NCBI GenBank assembly: GCA_025602905.1
Contig: JAHLKI010000041.1
Coordinates: 62,001-126,000, forward strand
Source of the DNA: Phlyctochytrium arcticum
Lineage: Eukaryota; Chytridiomycota; Chytridiomycetes; Chytridiales; Chytridiaceae
DNA length: 64,000 bases
Direction: 5' to 3'
Within the stretch, counting starts at the first letter, position 1. Each line of letters starts with the position of its first letter. Made by a program: the position numbers and the translations under genes. Shown piece by piece: positions 54,534 through 64,000 of this stretch. The notes under the pieces are model-generated. The model did no database searches. It saw only the letters and a program-made list of their open reading frames with translations, and had not been told where the DNA came from.

Positions 54534-56636
54534 ATGCCTTTGGTCTGTTATTTAACCAATTGTTTCAAGAAAATGACCCAGTCCAGTTTACTCCTCAAAG
54601 AAGTCCGAGAACGACTTTACCAACCCGCTGCAAAGTTTACACTGACCAAGAAAGAGTTTGATGAGCAGTGGCAAGTGGCGGATAACATGTGGACTAGACT
54701 CAACAAGAAAGCATCAGCCGGCACGAGAAGGTCCGTTAAAGTCACGACAATATACACCTGTCGAATGGCAGCGAAACGACAGCCTCATTCTTCGGGACCC
54801 CGTGAAGATGATACTGGCTCAATCAAGAGACGAGTAACTTCGACTCACATTCCTATAGATTGTCCCGTTAGATTGCGCGTTGTGGAGGATACTCAGACCG
54901 CCATGGTTTCGGTCGACCTTCAGCCGCAGTATGGAACAAAGCACTTACACCATACATTGGAAGACGTCGATCGACGCAAAATATGCGCTGCTGCACAGGA
55001 GATCATCAATAGCGAGGCTTTCAAGCCCTACCAGTCCAAGGAAATCGCAGGCGTCTTACCTGTAATGGTTGCCAAGGAATTTGACCCACAATATTTCGCG
55101 ACACTGGGTGTCGATCTTTTGACAGCTAAAACTGTCTGGAATGCCAAAAGAAGAGACCCTGAATTCAAAACAAACCCCGAATCGCAAATTCAGGATCCAG
55201 ATGTAGTTGAGGCAGAACAAGAACTACAAAAGGCTGGATATGTCACCCAGCGCTTTCTTGTTGCCCCTACTGACGAAATTGGTGCCACTGAAGGATTAGC
55301 ATTTGGCAGAAAAGAAGAATTGAAGGTACTGCAGGAATGTAGTTATCTTGTGTTGATGGATTCCACCCACAAGACGAACCGCTGGGACTGGAGGCTATTT
55401 ACGTGCATGGTGCGGAATAAAACAGGGTCTTGGGTTCCAGCCGGACAATTTTTTGCTCAGCGTGAAAACGGCGAGGGTGTGTACTCTGGGCTTAATGCCT
55501 TGCGAAATCTTGTTCTCGCTGAAACTGGAAAGAAGTGGATTCCAAACAATGTGATGATTGACCAATCTCATATTGAGAACCTTGGCATCCGGAAGGCTTT
55601 TCCAGGCATGGCAGCTGGTGAAGAAACACCCCGTATTTATTATTGCAAGGTTTGGCATGCTGTTTCCTTGTTTAATGTGGCATTCAGGAAAGAGGCTAAC
55701 GAGGAGAGAGACTGACGCTCACTATTCCAGGTTCACGTCATGCGTACGTTTATGAAGCATTTGACCAGTCACCGTGCGACATACGCCAAGATGATGCATG
55801 CTCTTAATAAGAGGACCCGCCTCGGTTGCCGTCAATTGGTCGACGAAGCAATCGCCGGAGCTCCTGCACATATGGCGACATATCTTAAAAGAAACTGGAC
55901 CAACACGGATCATCTTGAATGTTGGTCGATGGGTGCAAGGCAGCATTCGCCAGTGCTCCTGCAGATAACGTCGACCAACGCTCTCGAGTCCTACCACAAG
56001 CAATTAAAGGATGTTGGCAAGCCAACTGCTACACTTTGTGGGGCGGTCAAAACTATTGTGAATGTCAACGAGCGCTACGCTAAAAACGCGGCACAGCAAG
56101 ATTACACGTTCCGCCGTAAGCGCTTGACTCACACTGCCCAGTATCCTGCTCTAGCAAAGTTACCGCATCCATTACAACGTCTTGTGGTCGATCAGATTAT
56201 GATGGTCGCCGTTCGCATCGAAAAGGGTAAGCCAGTGCCCCAAATCGACAACCTCGACTGCAATTGCATGTTTGCCCGCCAGTATATGCTCCCGTGTGTC
56301 CATCTCTTTCACCAAGACATGTGCGCGGAGGAGACCATTTTCACCGACGCCGCGTGGGAAAGGTTTATTGGAGATTTTGAAGAATCGGGATTTGAGCTTT
56401 ATTGGGGCCGAGGAACGGCGCCTGTCAGGGAAATTGTGGTGACTCCGGCGCAGGTCAAGAAGAACCACCGCAAAACCCGCGTAAAGGCAGCTGTGGAGCA
56501 ACTTCAAAGCTTCCATTTCAAGCTCGAGGACCACCTTGAAGCAAACCCCATTTTTGAAGCGATGATGGAACGATTCTTAGCTCAATTAGAAGGCTATACT
56601 AGTCAGACTACAACCCAAGTTTGGAAATGGCACTAG
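54534..56636 (+). CDS. MULE-type transposase
   Basis: Two exons, 54534-55649 and 55731-56636, join across an 81-nt intron (AAG|gtttgg...ttccag) to about 673 aa; a start at Met 14 (54573) is also likely. An N-terminal C/H zinc-finger-like region (C-x-n-DCPVRL...KHLHHT) precedes the DDE core: first Asp in LVLMDSTHKTNR, second Asp in NVMIDQSHIENLG, Glu in STNALESYHKQLK. A SWIM zinc motif (CNCMFARQYMLPCVHLFH) follows, as in Mutator-like transposases. The frame is intact, so the copy is recent or domesticated. I could not find terminal inverted repeats by eye. It directly precedes the palindrome and virus-like module. Confidence 0.8.
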
Positions 56637-56915
56637 AAATAGAAGATAGAAGAGCGAATAGATAGTTTAAACTTTTTTGGTTGGCAATATATGTTGTGAA
56701 CTTGTATTTCGAATTCCTTGGTCTGGACGTTGTTACCGAGCTGTCGGTCCGGAGGTGGCTTGGTTGTCTCCCCCCGGCGAGCGATTGGAACCGGATATTA
56801 CCTCGCCCGAGACGCTCCCCGTTATGAGCAGGGAATTTAGAAAGTGTGCGGTCTTCGAAAGTGGTAGACTAAAACATAGAGCAATAACTAGTGACTAGAC
56901 TGAATGATTAGACAT

Positions 56916-56976
56916 TGACACGGTGCATAGACCCGAATTCCCTCTTAGAGGGAATTCGGGTCTATGCACCGTGTCA
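56916..56976. repeat. 61-bp perfect palindrome
   Basis: Two 30-bp arms (56916-56945 and 56947-56976) are exact reverse complements around a single T. The arm begins TGACACGGTGCATAGACC and ends GAATTCCCTCT. Such a structure would form a very stable hairpin as single strand or RNA. It lies 280 bp after the MULE gene and about 190 bp before the first ORF of the virus-like module. It could be a fused terminal repeat, a replication or resolution hairpin, or a transcription terminator. Confidence 0.95.
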
Positions 56977-57168
56977 GTGACTGGGTTCCTATATAGATTT
57001 GACCTGGTCAAGCGCTTAAGATGCCGCCCGAGCTAATAGTATATATACATAGTTATATGGTTACATAATACAGATCTATCCTATTAATAGAACTTTGACC
57101 AGATCCTGACCAGATCCAAGATCGAGTCAAATCCGAGGGCAACCGCCCATCTTGCCTTGAATCTCACA

Positions 57169-57507
57169 CTAATCTATCTGTATCACTTCTGACTCGATGA
57201 CGTCATCCGCCGTCTCTATTATATCGATATTCCGAACCCACACTTCATTCGTCGTCAGATACAATTCTCTGACTTCCTCTGGCATATTCGTCGCGTCTAC
57301 GCGGCGGGATGTCAAGATCTTGAACTTTAACTTCTTCAAAATTGTCCCTCGCTTGATTTGATGGCTTGTTATATTCCGCAGCTTCATTGTCTTCTTGATT
57401 GTCGCTAACAAGTCTGTATGTTCCTTTATCAGCTTCTGCGCTTTCTTAAACTCTTCCGATTGATCCAAGTCTATCAGACGTTCCATCTTCTTCTCCAGGT
57501 AATCCAT
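57169..57507 (-). CDS. 112-aa helical protein, unknown
   Basis: Intronless ORF with a highly charged, helical N-terminal half (MDYLEKKMERLIDLD, FKKAQKLIKEHTDLLATIKK) and a mixed C-terminal half (NMPEEVRELYLTTNEVWVRN) ending in acidic residues. A TATATAA box lies about 75 bp upstream. Its composition matches the viral module more than the host genes, and its place between the palindrome and the capsid gene suggests it belongs to the element. No family recognised. Confidence 0.5.
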   Translation of the reverse strand: MDYLEKKMERLIDLDQSEEFKKAQKLIKEHTDLLATIKKTMKLRNITSHQIKRGTILKKLKFKILTSRRVDATNMPEEVRELYLTTNEVWVRNIDIIETADDVIESEVIQID

Positions 57508-58014
57508 TGATGCTAACTTGATGCTATTTGGCGCTAACTTGATTCTAACTGTGGATATCTGAGGCAGGACCGTCGCTTTATATACTCGTGATTGTATCGA
57601 TACCTTTTCTTTCTATGGATCGGAAAGACTCTCTTGCTCCTTCACTGCCGCTTATTCGCCCCGAGGTCCCATGCTACATGTCGCCACTTGTCGCTACTTG
57701 TCGCTACACTTTTAGCAAAAAGTAGGAAAAATACCACAAACGTAATAAACGTTTAAGTGTGTTTTACGTTTGTGGAAAAATCACGACTTCTTCAAATTGC
57801 TGAATATGATGAAGTATGTGGAAAAGTGATTAGATGACCCTCACCGCAACAAAACGCAACGGGGAAAATCTTGGACATATGACTCACACTCTTGGTCAGA
57901 CAATACCATCTCTATTCTTTATTGATTCGGGGATGATTCTTTAGCTATTCGAACATTGCATTATTTGAAGCTTTTATATTACAAAGTCTTTTTCGAAAAT
58001 ATTCAATTGGTCAT
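57508..58014. other. non-coding zone with iterons and inverted repeat
   Basis: Three successive 10-bp units (tcgccacttg, tcgctacttg, tcgctacact) occupy 57681-57710. They are followed at 57734-57745 and 57764-57775 by a 12-bp inverted repeat, CCACAAACGTAA / TTACGTTTGTGG. No ORF is present. Iterons next to an inverted repeat could be an origin or a regulatory block for the element, but this is only a guess from position. Confidence 0.5.
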
Positions 58015-59265
58015 CTAGATTACATCAACCAAGTCTGAAACACTGAGGGTAACGTTCTCTTGGTATGTCAACAACAAGCGACAGTTGCTACTAGGTTTGT
58101 TGTTGGGGTCGTGTTCTGTAGTGAGTTTGAATACTGCATCTGTACCAGTAAAGTTCAATGCAGCCGGAACACCTTCTTCTAGAGATTGGAAAGCCCAGCC
58201 TGCGCTAAAGTACTTGTTGTTATAATCAGCCAAACTAGGAAGTGACAATTCACCCATAGAGTAAAAGTCATTCTGCTGCAATTGAGTGACCAATAGAGTC
58301 TGAGGATTCGTTAGTGAATTCTGGAAGCCTCTGCCTGTATTATTCGGAATAACAATACCACCGATATTCATCCACCACTGGCGCAAGCCCTTCGAAGAAC
58401 TAATGGCGTTCTTGTCCTTGGAAAGATCTTGCATTTGGTCGTCGTCAATCCATGAGAAATCAATAGATCGTAAAGAGCGCACACCAGAAAAGTTTGTAGA
58501 GTAGATTTGTCGACTAGCACCGTTACAATTAATTTCAACTTGAGTCGTTCGGACGTAATCGTAATTGATTGCTTTGCCAGCACTAATCGACTTCTCCACT
58601 TGGAATACGTATTCAGGAGGAGGAGTAACACATGGGACCAAGAATTCAACGTTTCTGAATATAACTTCATCAACTGTATCATTCAAGTAAAACTGTTTGG
58701 GATCGACTATAGTCAAGTATATATCAATATTCTGTGAGGGGTGAGCCCATATATGGAGGGGTCGTTCGTCATCACAGTGGAAAAATCCTATCGGCATGTG
58801 ACTAGTGTAAGATACAGTAGGTGATGATTCAAATATATCCGTTGCGCCATAGCCGTTCATACTTCGAATCGTTTTCTTCAACGTTTCAGGAATATACTTG
58901 TAGTTGTGAGTTAGATAATGAGGATAGTTGGGAATTTCCTGAATAACCTTGTTACCAATTTGAACACGCACACTTTGAATAAGACCATCGAGCCCCAATT
59001 CGGTATTCACAATACTATTCCCTGAAACGGGAACACCGTTTTTCATGGCAGTTACGTCAAATGAAAGAAGCAACTTTTGCAATATCAAGGATCGAGAAGA
59101 ATCATTTAAGGTAATCTTGATAGGGGTAGTTGTTCGAGTTTTCGACGTAAAGACATCTTGGCCTAAAGGGTTAAAAAACAACCAAGATTCACCACGAGGG
59201 TCAGAATAGGGCTTACTATAGCGATTCGAATTAATTAGCCAGTTGCGCGGAATATTTTCAGACAT
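58015..59265 (-). CDS. putative major capsid protein (double jelly-roll)
   Basis: Intronless, 416 aa. The composition is that of a beta-rich structural protein: many N/S/T, aromatic and hydrophobic alternations, few charged runs. Features of Polinton-like and virophage-like capsid proteins include an N-terminal strand run (TPIKITLNDSSRSLILQKLL, LSFDVTA), an exposed loop (LGLDGLIQSVRVQIGNKVI), PHYLTHNYKYIPE, a second sheet (WAHPSQNIDIYLTIVDPKQF, FRNVEFLVPCVTPPPEYVF) and a C-terminal jelly-roll-like part ending CRLLLTYQENVTLS. It is on the short side for the family. The start has a TATATA box about 20 bp upstream. The assignment relies on fold-like pattern and neighbours (ATPase, penton-like, integrase), not on an invariant motif. 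Confidence 0.65.
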   Translation of the reverse strand: MSENIPRNWLINSNRYSKPYSDPRGESWLFFNPLGQDVFTSKTRTTTPIKITLNDSSRSLILQKLLLSFDVTAMKNGVPVSGNSIVNTELGLDGLIQSVRVQIGNKVIQEIPNYPHYLTHNYKYIPETLKKTIRSMNGYGATDIFESSPTVSYTSHMPIGFFHCDDERPLHIWAHPSQNIDIYLTIVDPKQFYLNDTVDEVIFRNVEFLVPCVTPPPEYVFQVEKSISAGKAINYDYVRTTQVEINCNGASRQIYSTNFSGVRSLRSIDFSWIDDDQMQDLSKDKNAISSSKGLRQWWMNIGGIVIPNNTGRGFQNSLTNPQTLLVTQLQQNDFYSMGELSLPSLADYNNKYFSAGWAFQSLEEGVPAALNFTGTDAVFKLTTEHDPNNKPSSNCRLLLTYQENVTLSVSDLVDVI

Positions 59266-59293
59266 GGTTTACTTAATGAATATATAAAAAAAA

Positions 59294-59776
59294 TCAATAC
59301 CCGAATATTCCGCCAAAGTTTTCTTCTTCAACTACTTTTTTTTCAACTTGTTTAGTTTTTTCAACTTGTTGTTTCTTTTGGGCCTTTGGTTTGACTTGCG
59401 TATTCTTCTGTTCTCTCAATTGTTTCTTTTGTAACCTTTCGAGACGTTTCTGTTCTTTTTCTTGTCGTTTACGTTCTTCTAATTGATTCACCAAGTTGTA
59501 GGCCTCTTCAATTTTCCTCTGATATTCCAATTGTTCTCTTTCTTCATCCCGTTGTTTCTGCATAGTATTCAATTGAAGCTTCCTCGACTCTTGCGCTTTG
59601 CGTAGAGCTTCCTTTTGCTTCTCAGACATCTGCCTCTTTTTCTTGGGTGCTTCTTCAATTACAGTAGCTGTTGGTTCTTCTTCTTGTTGTACTGCTTCCC
59701 GTACAGGTTCTTGTACAACATCTTGTACCGGACTAGTTTCTTGTGGTTCAAGTAAAGCGTCTTCTTCAGTATTCAT
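59294..59776 (-). CDS. K/E/Q-rich coiled-coil protein
   Basis: 160 aa, intronless, 28 bp upstream of the capsid gene on the same strand. An acidic N-terminal 45 residues (QETSPVQDVVQEPVREAVQQ) is followed by about 100 residues of uninterrupted charged coiled coil (EKQKEALRKAQESRKLQL, EERKRQEKEQKRLERLQKKQ), and the end is NFGGIFGY. The short glycine-aromatic tail after a long helix is unusual and could be a docking peptide. A virion-internal or scaffold role is possible but unproven. Confidence 0.6.
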   Translation of the reverse strand: MNTEEDALLEPQETSPVQDVVQEPVREAVQQEEEPTATVIEEAPKKKRQMSEKQKEALRKAQESRKLQLNTMQKQRDEEREQLEYQRKIEEAYNLVNQLEERKRQEKEQKRLERLQKKQLREQKNTQVKPKAQKKQQVEKTKQVEKKVVEEENFGGIFGY

Positions 59777-59802
59777 TTTATCATGTACAAAACAAAAAAA
59801 AA

Positions 59803-59973
59803 TTAGAGTAATTTGTTTAAAGTCTTGAGTGCTTTCTCTAGTTGTGTCAGTACTTTGTCTAATTTTTCTTTTTGTGACTTTTCAATTCTTTTTTGTGTCT
59901 TTTCCTTCTTGTTTCGTTTTTCGATCTCGTTTAATATTTTGTATGTCTCAAAAAATTCTTCTTCATTATCCAT
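59803..59973 (-). CDS. 56-aa coiled-coil microprotein
   Basis: Small intronless ORF starting MDNEEEFFETYKILNEIEKR and ending LEKALKTLNKLL. It is entirely helical and K/E-rich like its 160-aa neighbour, and both starts share the leader GATAAAATG behind a run of T's. It is probably part of the same operon-like cluster. Function unknown. Confidence 0.5.
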   Translation of the reverse strand: MDNEEEFFETYKILNEIEKRNKKEKTQKRIEKSQKEKLDKVLTQLEKALKTLNKLL

Positions 59974-59998
59974 TTTATCCTAACAACAAAAAAAAATC

Positions 59999-60718
59999 TT
60001 ATATTCTCACATCTTGGACGTCGTCGGCAAGGAGAAAGCGTACACTGAGAGGTGATTCTAGTGCCAATTCTTCGTTCGTCATGCTATCTACAAGATGAAA
60101 CTCTATTTTGCTAATAGTTTGATCCACAGTGAGCCACTCACTGTCGTTGGTAAAATTGATGACATCTCCGAAACTGTCTGGTATTATTGTTGCTACTACA
60201 CTGCTACCAATGTCATTGTAATCGGAAAGAAAACGAACTGAAGGTACGTTGATGTTGCTAGTAAGAAGTATGGGGTAAGAACCACTGAGATTCACAGTAT
60301 TCTTAAATGTGGCAGATTTGCCTAAAGGTGTCGCTGTGCGATTCGACATGCCACTGACACTGTACATCTTTGTTCCTTCTTTGCCAGGCAGAATACTGAA
60401 ATCCTTATCAACACAAGTCAATGTAATGCGACGTGTAATTTGGTTGTAGGTTGCAGAATACGATTGGGAACCTGCAATAGTCATGGCTGAGGCAATAGAT
60501 TGTCCAAAGTTGGCAACGGTATAGTTCCCTGGTGGAACAGTTGCAACGATTGGATCGTCATTGCCGCTTTCTTTGAATACAATGGTGTTGTTGGTTGAAT
60601 TAATAAGATCGTAGTCTTGGATGAATGAGACACTGAGAATCTTGATGTAACTGACATTGCGACGACCTATCGGAAAGCTACGGCCTTTCAAGCTACAGAA
60701 TGTCAACTCGTTGATCAT
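59999..60718 (-). CDS. putative penton / minor capsid protein
   Basis: 239 aa from the ATG at 60716-60718; I chose this start because a TATATAA box lies about 25 bp upstream and the longer frame would overlap the divergent ATPase gene. The sequence is beta-rich with VPPGNYTVANFGQSIASAM followed by YNQITRRITLTC, a pattern (turn, strand, short helix 'xxxxLxxxx', strand) common in penton or minor capsid proteins of Polinton-like viruses and virophages. The end, LSVRFLLADDVQDVRI, is strand-like. It is expected to fill capsid vertices beside the major capsid protein. The role is inferred from pattern and context. Confidence 0.6.
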   Translation of the reverse strand: MINELTFCSLKGRSFPIGRRNVSYIKILSVSFIQDYDLINSTNNTIVFKESGNDDPIVATVPPGNYTVANFGQSIASAMTIAGSQSYSATYNQITRRITLTCVDKDFSILPGKEGTKMYSVSGMSNRTATPLGKSATFKNTVNLSGSYPILLTSNINVPSVRFLSDYNDIGSSVVATIIPDSFGDVINFTNDSEWLTVDQTISKIEFHLVDSMTNEELALESPLSVRFLLADDVQDVRI

Positions 60719-60755
60719 CGTACTTGTTTCTTCTCTTATATAATAGAAAAGAAAC
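60719..60755. promoter_or_regulatory. bidirectional viral promoter
   Basis: Only 37 bp separate the divergent starts of the penton-like gene and the ATPase. The centre is TTCTCTTATATAATAG, which reads as a TATA box in both directions. Comparable boxes precede the capsid gene (TATATATTC) and the small membrane-active-type gene (ATATATAAC). Confidence 0.6.
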
Positions 60756-61463
60756 ATGTATCGAGTGAAACCTATATACAACAGTAAATCGGTAGCACCA
60801 GACAAAAGAGTACCCTTTCCCCTAGCATCTCCGGAGCTATGCTCGACGTTATGCGCGCCCAGAAAATCGGGCAAAACTAGTTACGTGTGCGGAGTAATAA
60901 ACGATGTCTATGCGCCAGTGGTTGACAAGGTGATTATCATGTCTGATACAGTAGAATACGATTTATGTATACAAGAATTGGCCAAAGTCACAAAGCATCA
61001 GAATATATTTTTTGCCGATGTAGTCTCTAATGAAAGTATCAAGAGTATTGTTGATTCGCAAATTGCAGGGGATTGTAAAGACAAGATCCTATTATACATT
61101 GATGACGCGGGCGATTCGGCACGAAGTAAAGACTTGTCGCGTGAATTGGACAAACTCTTTACGAAGGGAAGACACTACAATATCTCTATAATTGTGACAT
61201 GTCAAAGCATCACCAGTCAGCTCTCTCGAAAACAAAAAAATTGCACAACTGAGTGGATCATATTCCGCAATAACAGAAAAGATATGGAAACTCTGGCCGA
61301 GACTTTGGTGACAGCTTTTGCTGACAAGAAGGAAATATTAGACTATTTGGTTCAATGTACGACAAAGCCGTATTCGTTTTGTTATATAAATTTAGCTAAT
61401 GATAATGCAAAGGAAATCTACACATACTGTGAAGACAATGTATTCAAATATTACTTTACTTGA
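60756..61463 (+). CDS. A32/FtsK-type genome packaging ATPase
   Basis: 235 aa, intronless. Walker A is APRKSGKTS (residues 34-42), Walker B is ILLYIDDAGD (111-120), and a polar motif follows in SIIVTCQSI (near 150), the arrangement of the viral FtsK-HerA branch that includes the packaging ATPases of poxviruses, giant viruses, virophages and Polintons. The protein would pump the dsDNA genome into the capsid. The family's usual length is 220-280 aa, so the gene looks complete. It overlaps the next, convergent gene by 8 bp, as in compact viral genomes. Confidence 0.85.
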   Translation: MYRVKPIYNSKSVAPDKRVPFPLASPELCSTLCAPRKSGKTSYVCGVINDVYAPVVDKVIIMSDTVEYDLCIQELAKVTKHQNIFFADVVSNESIKSIVDSQIAGDCKDKILLYIDDAGDSARSKDLSRELDKLFTKGRHYNISIIVTCQSITSQLSRKQKNCTTEWIIFRNNRKDMETLAETLVTAFADKKEILDYLVQCTTKPYSFCYINLANDNAKEIYTYCEDNVFKYYFT

Positions 61464-61761
61464 GGTTCGCTTCAAGTCTATCGGCAAATGCTTCTGAATT
61501 CTTATGCAGGTCGGATAGCTTCTTCACGCCGCTTTCTGCTTTGGAATTGAGGTCATTTGCTTTTCCTCTAATTTTCTCATTAAACAGATCGGGACTCTCT
61601 TGAATACTCTGGTTAACACCTTTTAGTAACTTCTGTCCTTTATTCGCGATTCCTACCGCTTGTGATGCAAACGATCGAGCTTTGTGGGCAAAGAGCGGTG
61701 CGTTTGTCCATGCTGTACGCAATCCTTGTTTTCCCTTATTGAAAAGGTTACGGAAACTCAT
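61456..61761 (-). CDS. small amphipathic virion-type protein
   Basis: 101 aa from ATG 61759-61761, which has TATATAA about 12 bp upstream. The N-terminal 45 residues can form a basic amphipathic helix (FRNLFNKGKQGLRTAW, ARSFASQAVGIANKGQKLL), followed by a helical, weakly charged tail. Polintons and related viruses often encode a small internal protein of this kind, compared with adenovirus protein VI, thought to disrupt membranes during entry. The similarity is in layout only, so the call is tentative. Confidence 0.45.
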   Translation of the reverse strand: MSFRNLFNKGKQGLRTAWTNAPLFAHKARSFASQAVGIANKGQKLLKGVNQSIQESPDLFNEKIRGKANDLNSKAESGVKKLSDLHKNSEAFADRLEANLK

Positions 61762-61818
61762 GGTTTTGTTATATATTACATAGATTTTATATTCTCTCAT
61801 GCATAGAGAAAAGAAAGA

Positions 61819-63321
61819 ATGGTATATCGGACCAATCTATTAGAATTCGATGGTTCACTAAGAACACCAGAACCTAATCCTCAGAGTAACCTGAAGACAG
61901 TAGGTGTCGATGTAAATCACGGAAGACCTCGTGTAGTCGGCACATTTAACAAAAGGTTGAGACGTATGAATACGCGAAACGTTTCTCATATTGATCACCA
62001 TGTTCAAGATGTCTCTGCTACAGATTTAAAGACAAGTGATTCTCGGTATGCCACTAAAGCATATAAGGACTTTGAAGAATATAAAAATCTCGAACTGATG
62101 TATCGAGAGAAACAGCAATTCATTGATTCAATCACGCCGCAAAAGTCAGTCAGTGGAACAAATGCGTCACGTTTACCCATTCCGTCGCAGAATGGAGTGA
62201 TCTTTCATTACCCCCCAGAAGTCACTGCGAATACTGGAATGATGTTTTCCAAGCCGCAAAATACACCAGAACGTGAGAGACCATTACAGGGGCAAACTGT
62301 ATCCCGTCCTGTCATTGAAGTGTCTGATACAGTTGTGCGAAAAGATGCAGAAACTGGTCTTGGGTTTCTCAGTGAACCATCGACTGTAGTTAATCCGTTG
62401 CCAATTAGACGGGTACCTGAAGAAATTGAAATCAGTATTCCAGGTGGTTTCCCAAGAGTACCAAGTCCCGAACCTTCGCCTCGAAATGTGACTCCAGTTG
62501 AGACATATGTTCCTCAGAGTTTCCCTCCTTCCGACATTGTTGCATCAGGTCGAGCTAATGTTCAAGAAGTTCTTGATGACAATTTTGTCAATAATAATGT
62601 TTCAGAATATAACATGCGAGGTACAATTAGACGAGGGAGAACAACAACAAACCGTACTAATCCATACAACAAAAAGGACAAGGTACGTCTTGCGAATGGA
62701 CAATTGTCGAATCCTGTAGTAACCGATTCAGAGATTCAAAACAATGTTGTCACTGATCCGGCGTCAGGTTCTGCTGTATTCGTTCCTCAAACTGAAGGTG
62801 TAGAAACCCGTCAAAGGCGTCGACCTTCGACACCGATCCCTCGCCCGTCTCCAATACCTGAAGCAAATGTTGGTCGTGAGATTCAATACGATTATTTGGC
62901 AGCAGATGCAACGACAAATGTCGCTCAAGTTCCAGAACCGCCGCAACCTGTTAACGTTTCTGTCATTCGTCCACTAAGTGCGTTGCCCACTCAATTGACT
63001 GATTCGGCGATCATCAATCCGAAAAGAGCACAACGACAAGAAGTAGATTTGGAACAGGCTGCACCTAAGCGACGAAAGAAAAATCCTCGACTTGAGCCTC
63101 CAGGATTCGTTAAGTTGCCCAAAGCATCGGCTACCTCATATAAGGATTTCGAGAAACCTTTTGAATATCCAAAGAAACCGGCTGTAACTGGTACCGCAAT
63201 CTTGAATCCACCAAGGGCTGTAACTGGTACCGCCATTCTAAACCCTGGCAGAGCGAATAGGTTACGTGATGAAGAACGAGAATCTTTGGCGCCTCCGGCA
63301 AAGCGTCGTAAGAGAAAATAA
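61819..63321 (+). CDS. 500-aa proline-rich basic protein
   Basis: Intronless. No known domain. It begins MVYRTNLLEFDGSLRTPEP, then has a charged region (YKDFEEYKNLELMYREKQQF) and a long Pro/Val/Asn-rich disordered centre. Near the end the motif AIL/INPxRA occurs three times (AIINPKRAQ, TAILNPPRA, TAILNPGRA); YKDFE also occurs twice, near residues 81-86 and 436-440. It closes with PPAKRRKRK, a nuclear-import or DNA-binding tail. Length, basic ends and disorder suggest a virion core, scaffold or tegument-like role. It precedes the integrase by 14 bp on the same strand. Confidence 0.65.
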   Translation: MVYRTNLLEFDGSLRTPEPNPQSNLKTVGVDVNHGRPRVVGTFNKRLRRMNTRNVSHIDHHVQDVSATDLKTSDSRYATKAYKDFEEYKNLELMYREKQQFIDSITPQKSVSGTNASRLPIPSQNGVIFHYPPEVTANTGMMFSKPQNTPERERPLQGQTVSRPVIEVSDTVVRKDAETGLGFLSEPSTVVNPLPIRRVPEEIEISIPGGFPRVPSPEPSPRNVTPVETYVPQSFPPSDIVASGRANVQEVLDDNFVNNNVSEYNMRGTIRRGRTTTNRTNPYNKKDKVRLANGQLSNPVVTDSEIQNNVVTDPASGSAVFVPQTEGVETRQRRRPSTPIPRPSPIPEANVGREIQYDYLAADATTNVAQVPEPPQPVNVSVIRPLSALPTQLTDSAIINPKRAQRQEVDLEQAAPKRRKKNPRLEPPGFVKLPKASATSYKDFEKPFEYPKKPAVTGTAILNPPRAVTGTAILNPGRANRLRDEERESLAPPAKRRKRK

Positions 63322-63335
63322 ATGATTAATAGTAA

Positions 63336-64000
63336 ATGGAAGAAGTACCGGTCATTAAATCGAGGAGTCTACAATATTCGAAAGAGCTATCAGATCTAGA
63401 TGCCCGTCAATTGAAAGAGTTTTACTATAAGGACCTCCATATGTATGGTAGGGATAGACTCTATTATGCATATAAACAGAGGTATCCTGATTCTAAAGTG
63501 TCTCAGAGAGCGGTGTTAAAATGGCTCAAGAAACAAGAAATCTATCAAAGAAGTAGTCGCCCTATCGGAAGTAAGGGTAGTATTCGCCCTATACTCTCAT
63601 CCAAACCAGGGACTTTCCAAATTGATACTGTGAATATGAGGTCACATTCATATAATGGGTTTAATTATATTGTAAATTTAATCGACATCTTCAGTAAAAA
63701 ACTGCTCTGAAACGGAATACACAAGAAGAGGTCAAAACATTTCTAGAAGATCTATTAGAAGACGGTGTCGAGATAGTATATGTGAACAGCGACCAAGGTC
63801 AGGAATTCAAACATCTGGTTCAAGGCTTAGCTGAAGAATACGGTATTAAATGGACATTTTCAAAACCTCACACACCGACTTCAAATTCACATGTAGAAAG
63901 GGTCAATGGCTCACTTAAAAATATTCTGTTCAAATCGATTCAATTGGGTGATCCAAATTGGCCAGCAGCATTACCAAAGATTGTGGAAAATTTAAATACT
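63336..64000 (+). pseudogene. rve integrase, frameshifted, cut by window edge
   Basis: The first 124 codons read open: an N-terminal helical domain (LKEFYYKDLHMYGRDRLYYA, SQRAVLKWLKKQEIYQ) and the first catalytic aspartate in FQIDTVNM (residue 97). The frame then stops at 63708-63710 beside an A6 run. The rest of the catalytic core continues in another frame: the second Asp in VNSDQGQEF and the Glu in SHVERVNG about 35 residues later, the D-D-35-E spacing of retrovirus-type integrases used by Polintons. The segment at the break is also a few residues shorter than usual, so a small deletion rather than programmed slippage is likely. The C-terminus lies beyond the window. Confidence 0.8.

Follow-up and report, generated by a model that had tools for sequence, protein, structure and literature searches.

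A Polinton-like virus integrated in the genome of the chytrid Phlyctochytrium arcticum, with palindromic and possibly hairpin-forming ends

The C41 element and its genes

The stretch of DNA analysed here (the window) comprises 64,000 nucleotides, positions 62001-126000 of contig JAHLKI010000041.1 (C41) of the chytrid fungus Phlyctochytrium arcticum, whose 31.5-Mb genome is distributed over 91 contigs (C1, C18, C26 and so on below). At window position 56916 begins A/T-rich DNA with open reading frames on both strands, and exactly here lies the left border of an integrated Polinton-like virus (PLV). The whole element occupies C41 118916-151950 (33.0 kb), ~26 kb of it beyond the window end. It is bounded by terminal inverted repeats (TIRs; Table 1) and falls within the size range of 14-40 kb given for PLVs with such repeats (PMC12220804); copies on C26 and C18 measure 25.1 and 25.2 kb, respectively.

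All six elements for which both borders were read (those on C41, C26, C18, C23 and C40, and C1 1308257-1324039) start with TG, end with CA and are flanked by an exact 5-bp duplication (GACAT, GTAAC, GTCAG, GTTAC, CCCTG and TGCCG, respectively). The published range for integrated PLVs is 5-7 bp (PMC7805220), and rve integrases of this kind are typically said to give 6-bp duplications (PMC12220804). Pieces of a MULE-like transposase, with matches just below the Pfam cut-offs, lie directly left of the C41 insertion (window 54534-56636).

The part of the element inside the window encodes a capsid protein, a penton protein, an A32-type packaging ATPase and an rve integrase. The original prediction, made from the letters alone, had named these four genes, the capsid and penton as candidates, and read them as a Polinton-like viral element in a fungal chromosome. 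Domain matches and predicted folds bear out the gene assignments, and the gene content, the predicted capsid and penton folds, the TIRs and the target duplications together uphold the reading. Structure prediction, which had been proposed as a check, returned the expected folds for both the capsid and the penton (minor capsid) protein, and the ATPase is of the A32/FtsK packaging type. An rve domain and a chromodomain are recognised in the integrase (the rve domain in the open C18 copy). The integrase frame is open in the C18 and C26 copies and broken in C41, and because of this break the window copy is probably not autonomous. The 112-amino acid (aa) gene lies within the TIR and is thus present at both ends of the element.

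Extension of the element past the window had been suggested as a way to find a polymerase B, a protease and terminal repeats. A second TIR, a primase-helicase, a methyltransferase and a fibre-like protein do complete the virus there, but neither a polymerase B nor a protease was recognised among the proteins scanned. In order, the rest of the integrase with its chromodomain is followed by proteins of 490, 143, 108 and 205 aa, an 818-aa primase-helicase, a 388-aa methyltransferase-like protein, a 1675-aa fibre-like protein, a 109-aa protein, a response-regulator receiver gene and the second TIR. The primase-helicase, which has Prim-Pol and D5_N domains and a match to the African swine fever virus primase, provides a replication gene other than the protein-primed polymerase B (pPolB); there is no match to PF03175 (polymerase B) on C41 or among the element proteins scanned, and no chitinase was recognised among the latter. 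None of the capsid, penton, fibre, ATPase and 490-aa proteins had a convincing counterpart among PDB sequences. The fibre-like proteins of C41 and C26 (1675 and 1686 aa) fall just below the Pfam cut-off for the avian adenovirus fibre (21.6 vs. 22.7 bits, E = 1.9e-4, no single stretch passing), so they are fibres only putatively.

The response-regulator receiver domain, a part of two-component signalling, stands alone and is also present in the C18 and C26 copies. The methyltransferase slot holds a D12-class adenine methyltransferase in C26 and another methyltransferase-like protein in C41 and C18. At C41 ~135247-144883 there is a near-perfect tandem repeat of four 2617-bp units, each comprising the first part of the fibre gene and a G+C-rich insert whose 292-aa frame matches no known family; the unit is single in C18 and partial in C15 and C17, and its repetition in C41 is either real or an assembly product.

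Relatives of the capsid and penton come from the chytrids Spizellomyces, Powellomyces, Phlyctochytrium, Gaertneriomyces and Thoreauomyces. Capsids in Spizellomyces, Powellomyces and Gaertneriomyces are 38-44% identical to that of C41, among them S. punctatus SPPG_02195 (43-44%; possibly the capsid of the published S. punctatus element), and the penton is 54% identical to a relative annotated as the penton of Powellomyces MELD virus 5. Given these related chytrid capsids and a chytrid element published in 2021 (PMC7805220), the earlier suggestion of a new lineage was too strong. A search of a large protein set with the integrase gave four matches, none bearing a viral name.

Table 1. Features of the element inside the window (window coordinates; aa, amino acids; TIR, terminal inverted repeat).
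Feature	Position	Strand	Remarks
Left 5-bp target-site duplication, GACAT	56911..56915	.	right copy at C41 151951-151955, beyond the window
Terminal palindrome	56916..56976	.	30-bp perfect arms, 1-base centre, TG start, CA end; fold z -15.7
Left TIR, ~1.04 kb	56916..57953	.	99.8% identical to right TIR over 1038 aligned columns
112-aa gene within TIR	57169..57507	-	present at both ends of the element
Capsid protein (double-jelly-roll)	58015..59265	-	predicted fold, chytrid relatives
160-aa lysine/glutamate-rich protein	59294..59776	-	in each compared copy (C26, C17, C18, both C1 arms)
Penton protein	59999..60757	-	several relatives begin at an inner ATG, giving 59999-60718 (239 aa)
A32-type genome-packaging ATPase, 235 aa	60756..61463	+	
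114-aa small protein	61456..61800	-	relative with 33% identity beside the C26 copy (E = 2.5e-15)
500-aa proline-rich protein	61819..63321	+	also in the C26, C17 and C18 copies
rve integrase, first part, with C-terminal chromodomain	63336..64000	+	gene continues to C41 126594

Copies, selection and shared modules

A search of the genome with the capsid protein yielded 58 stretches, some of them pieces of one gene, from which 30 near full-length capsid genes were picked by hand; 26 of these contain no stop and four contain one. An A32-like gene is located within 4 kb of 23 of the 30. Among the matches entered in the count, 15 have a primase-helicase no more than 20 kb away and four have a polymerase B at such a distance; these four lie on C3, C7, C25 and C54, and their capsids are 23-28% identical to the C41 capsid. 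All 52 ATPase rows, 22 of 34 primase-helicase rows and 12 of 14 polymerase-B rows were entered, weak or short pieces having been dropped. The primase-helicase is present in the C41, C18 and C26 copies and also occurs near other capsid types on C15, C23, C2, C45 and C4. With a primase-helicase near half of the capsid genes and a polymerase B near four, two replication types coexist in the genome.

In the C17 copy the right part is missing. The C26 copy appears to be nested within a second element of the polymerase-B type (C26 364224-401019), its flanks containing a distant capsid in two pieces (366725-367926), an A32 gene (364224), the relative of the 114-aa protein (369784), an integrase (396299) and a polymerase-B match (400414). 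Inverted arrangements with a capsid gene at each end are found at C1 1324339-1343380 and C40 7173-32114.

Capsid genes are under purifying selection between copies, with ratios of replacement to synonymous change (dN/dS) of 0.02-0.14 (15 pairs). The ratio is 0.08-0.16 for the penton (6 pairs) and 0.14 for the integrase (one pair), and the ATPase differs between copies by 0-7 synonymous and zero replacement changes (6 pairs). For the primase-helicase, synonymous sites are saturated between C26 and the other copies.

Sequence identity is unevenly distributed along the elements. Over the left 7.1 kb the identity of C41 and C18 is 95.5-95.7%; over the remainder compared it is 99.6-99.9% (the repeat-rich C41 136001-146000 was excluded). 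C26 carries this capsid module as well (94.2% over 6.1 kb), but with a primase-helicase that is just 83% identical as DNA and 80% as protein. C15 and C41 have in common 7.8 kb at 99.6%, from the 143-aa gene through the primase-helicase and methyltransferase, yet the C15 capsid protein is just 52% identical to that of C41 and its capsid region has no blastn match of at least 100 bases. Similarly, C23 and C26 share 6.4 kb at 99.97% identity, with capsids that are ~51% identical. These tracts indicate that replication modules (6-8 kb) are exchanged between elements with very different capsids. In the C18 copy the two ends are of different types, that of C26 and that of C41. Its TIRs are just 88.7% identical while its 5-bp duplication is intact, so recombination preceded its integration.

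Palindromic ends and a candidate end-processing enzyme

A terminal palindrome is present at 18 element ends, the 18th being the right end of the C1 1308257-1324039 element. The perfect arms are 29-34 bp long and the centre consists of 0, 1, 3 or 5 bases; in every element with two known borders it starts at the outermost TG. The palindrome at the left end of the C41 element is the only one with arms of at least 20 bp in the 64-kb window, and across 22 scanned stretches (~215 kb, one overlapping the window) palindromes of this arm length are confined to element ends. These termini are self-complementary, as expected of a linear genome with hairpin ends, here in its integrated form. A lone element end with a palindrome at C16:698332, on a contig with no capsid match, is perhaps a solo terminal repeat.

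There are at least eight palindrome sequence types with a common GTGCAT core. Compared without gaps, the arms have an identity of 0.13-0.61 in 26 of the 28 type pairs and of 0.90 and 0.93 in the other two; it was computed in two registers only, and the low values are partly due to register. Each type is self-complementary despite this divergence: the sequence changes and the pairing stays. Palindromes that are alike in every other respect can have the centre in either orientation: T/A in the C41 and C26 types, TGGAG/CTCCA in the C23/C45 type. Read from the outside in, the left and right centres differ in four of the five testable elements (C41, C26, C18 and C1 1308257). Such differences are the flip/flop expected if the ends are copied via hairpins, although five elements cannot exclude chance. 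The inverted copy at C1 1324339-1343380, with 6.0-kb arms that are 99.96-100% identical and a 6.8-kb centre, could be a product of fold-back copying or an assembly error.

The 490-aa protein encoded next to the integrase is a candidate for processing these ends. Six members were aligned (the others are 40-46% identical to the first, in about three distinct groups), and R261/R262, K292, R357, H385 and Y394 are invariant in all six. The order R-K-R-H-Y, with H and Y nine residues apart, is the catalytic set of tyrosine recombinases and telomere resolvases. This pattern, which was chosen after viewing the sequence, appears in none of 2000 column shuffles and is missing from the capsid and penton alignments. 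The 490-aa protein has no recombinase match in Pfam, PHROGs or PDB and none to the telomere enzyme of phage N15; a Myb DNA-binding domain is matched in four of the six members (best E = 7.5e-5). From these residues we hypothesize that it is a tyrosine-recombinase-like end-processing enzyme.

A life cycle can be sketched from these parts. The rve integrase would join linear viral DNA to the chromosome with a 5-bp stagger, its chromodomain perhaps guiding integration to chromatin. The primase-helicase would start replication and a host polymerase would elongate, and the terminal palindromes would serve as hairpin ends, solving end replication without the pPolB of Polintons. The loop flips and the C1 inverted copy with its 6-kb arms may be traces left by fold-back copying. 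Finally, the A32-type ATPase would package the DNA into a double-jelly-roll shell that bears pentons and probably fibres.

Alternative explanations and comparison with known systems

We are confident that the C41 element is an endogenous, recently mobile double-stranded DNA virus of the Polinton-like (MELD) kind in P. arcticum; on the best reading it belongs to a recently active lineage of endogenous viruses, possibly one with hairpin genome ends. A number of observations speak against one or the other part of this interpretation. The virus is known here from integrated DNA alone, with no particle, transcript or free genome. The capsid model has a mean pLDDT of only 61.8, and its query-normalised TM-scores against predicted viral structures are low (0.21-0.34 for the 50 matches listed). 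No relative was found in IMG/VR with the capsid alone, the capsid alignment or the penton alignment, nor with the 490-aa alignment. No protease was recognised, there being no Ulp1/adenain-type Pfam match in the scanned proteins, where a divergent one could escape, and the integrase is interrupted in the C17 copy as it is in the window. With regard to the ends, the left and right loops of C23 agree, the one exception among the five testable elements; the right end of the C1 element starting at ~1736774 is cut inside the palindrome; the C17 copy and the C1 inverted copy have no right-end palindrome; and no whole palindrome was found in pieces on C46, C8, C19 and C3, at positions guessed from weak TIR or capsid matches. 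The hairpin-processing enzyme is an unproven candidate, and the 490-aa protein has a dN/dS of 0.63 between C41 and C26 (just 7 changes, one pair).

A true Polinton or Maverick after loss of polymerase B and protease would also have an rve integrase with a chromodomain, a capsid, a penton, an A32 ATPase and TIRs, and pPolB genes do exist elsewhere in the genome. However, a primase-helicase fills the replication slot in C41, C18 and C26 and near other capsid types, while pPolB lies near just four of the 30 full-length capsids, and these are the distant ones. The element has no recognised polymerase B and its duplications are 5 bp instead of 6 bp, so it does not qualify as a strict Polinton; we reject its origin by such losses as very improbable. 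Decay poses a somewhat better case: the broken integrase of the window, stops in four full-length capsid genes, the pieces that make up other stretches among the 58 and the lost right part of C17 would all suit a dead relic, that is, an old integrated virus surviving as immobile repeats. Against this stand TIRs that are 99.8% identical, 26 of 30 full-length capsid genes free of stops, purifying selection, and stretches of 99.6-99.97% identity shared by elements on different contigs; a pure relic was rejected on these grounds, and we regard the relic explanation as improbable overall. That the sequences derive from a contaminating free virus or a mis-assembled scaffold is scarcely credible. Although assembly might account for the inverted copy on C1 and for the exact 2617-bp tandem repeat, matching 5-bp duplications in the flanks at six separate sites (C41, C26, C18, C23, C40 and C1, the last a contig of 2.97 Mb) led us to reject this explanation.

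A weightier objection concerns only the ends. The palindromes may be unrelated to end replication, serving as signals for the integrase or for packaging, or arising by cruciform processing in the chromosome. The common GTGCAT core is what a protein-binding site would show, searches with the 490-aa protein recognised no end-processing enzyme, and the two loops of C23 agree. Yet the first base of the palindrome is also that of the element, all eight types have perfect arms of 29-34 bp despite their divergent sequence, and both loop orientations occur in otherwise identical palindromes. We give this explanation a substantial chance, somewhat short of even. Our own proposal for the ends is more tentative still, and in its full form rather doubtful: chytrid PLVs of this type would be hairpin-telomere viruses without pPolB, their flip-flopping ends opened or closed by the tyrosine-recombinase-like 490-aa protein and still usable by a retroviral-type integrase, and a swarm of them in one fungus would trade replication modules between deeply different capsids.

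Hardly any DNA viruses of fungi are known from culture. The P. arcticum genome contains a large, partly intact swarm of such viruses with sharp integration sites, so a single fungal culture could be used to test whether a chytrid produces particles. The palindromic ends suggest a concrete way in which PLVs without polymerase B may copy their ends, and the module sharing shows recombination between elements of very different capsids, in one case (C18) before integration. While the Polinton-like kind is already known in chytrids, the palindromic ends and module sharing are the part that we did not find described: among the matches listed in a search of open-licence PMC titles and abstract beginnings, none described the elements of this genome or palindromic PLV ends.

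Terminal palindromes are shared with parvoviruses, poxviruses and phage N15, and flip/flop of hairpin loops is known for parvoviruses and poxviruses. The phage N15 record annotates a 56-bp inverted repeat with the cut site close to the telomere enzyme. In contrast, the C41 element has no match to the N15 enzyme and no recognised Rep-type nickase, and its capsid is presumably of another kind than those of N15 or the parvoviruses. As for mavirus-type virophages, the capsid profile recovered no virophage capsid from PDB sequences, and no helper giant virus is known here. The NCBI taxonomy lists six Powellomyces chytrid fungus MELD viruses (taxids 2707315-2707320), whose names reportedly stem from Starrett et al. 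2021; MELD viruses 1-6, compared by their names and one protein, have a chytrid host, and the penton of MELD virus 5 is similar to that of the C41 element (above).

Polintons and Mavericks have the rve integrase, capsid, penton, A32 ATPase and TIRs in common with the C41 element, which differs from them in its lack of a recognised polymerase B or protease, its 5-bp rather than 6-bp duplications and its palindromic ends. These family features are in part documented in PMC11071308 and PMC12220804. A survey of protists, from which fungi were excluded by design, reports pPolB or a primase-helicase together with either type of integrase (PMC10120064). For one chytrid and for oomycetes, integrated PLVs were described by Bellas & Sommaruga 2021 (PMC7805220), who report 16 such elements (1 fungal, 15 oomycete), with TIRs in seven and 5-7-bp duplications at three; the group of the S. 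punctatus element has 27 members, 52% of which have a chitinase, and the word 'hairpin' is absent from the main text. The S. punctatus element is likewise integrated in a chytrid host, but it is the one fungal case of that study, whereas the P. arcticum genome contains dozens of capsid genes.

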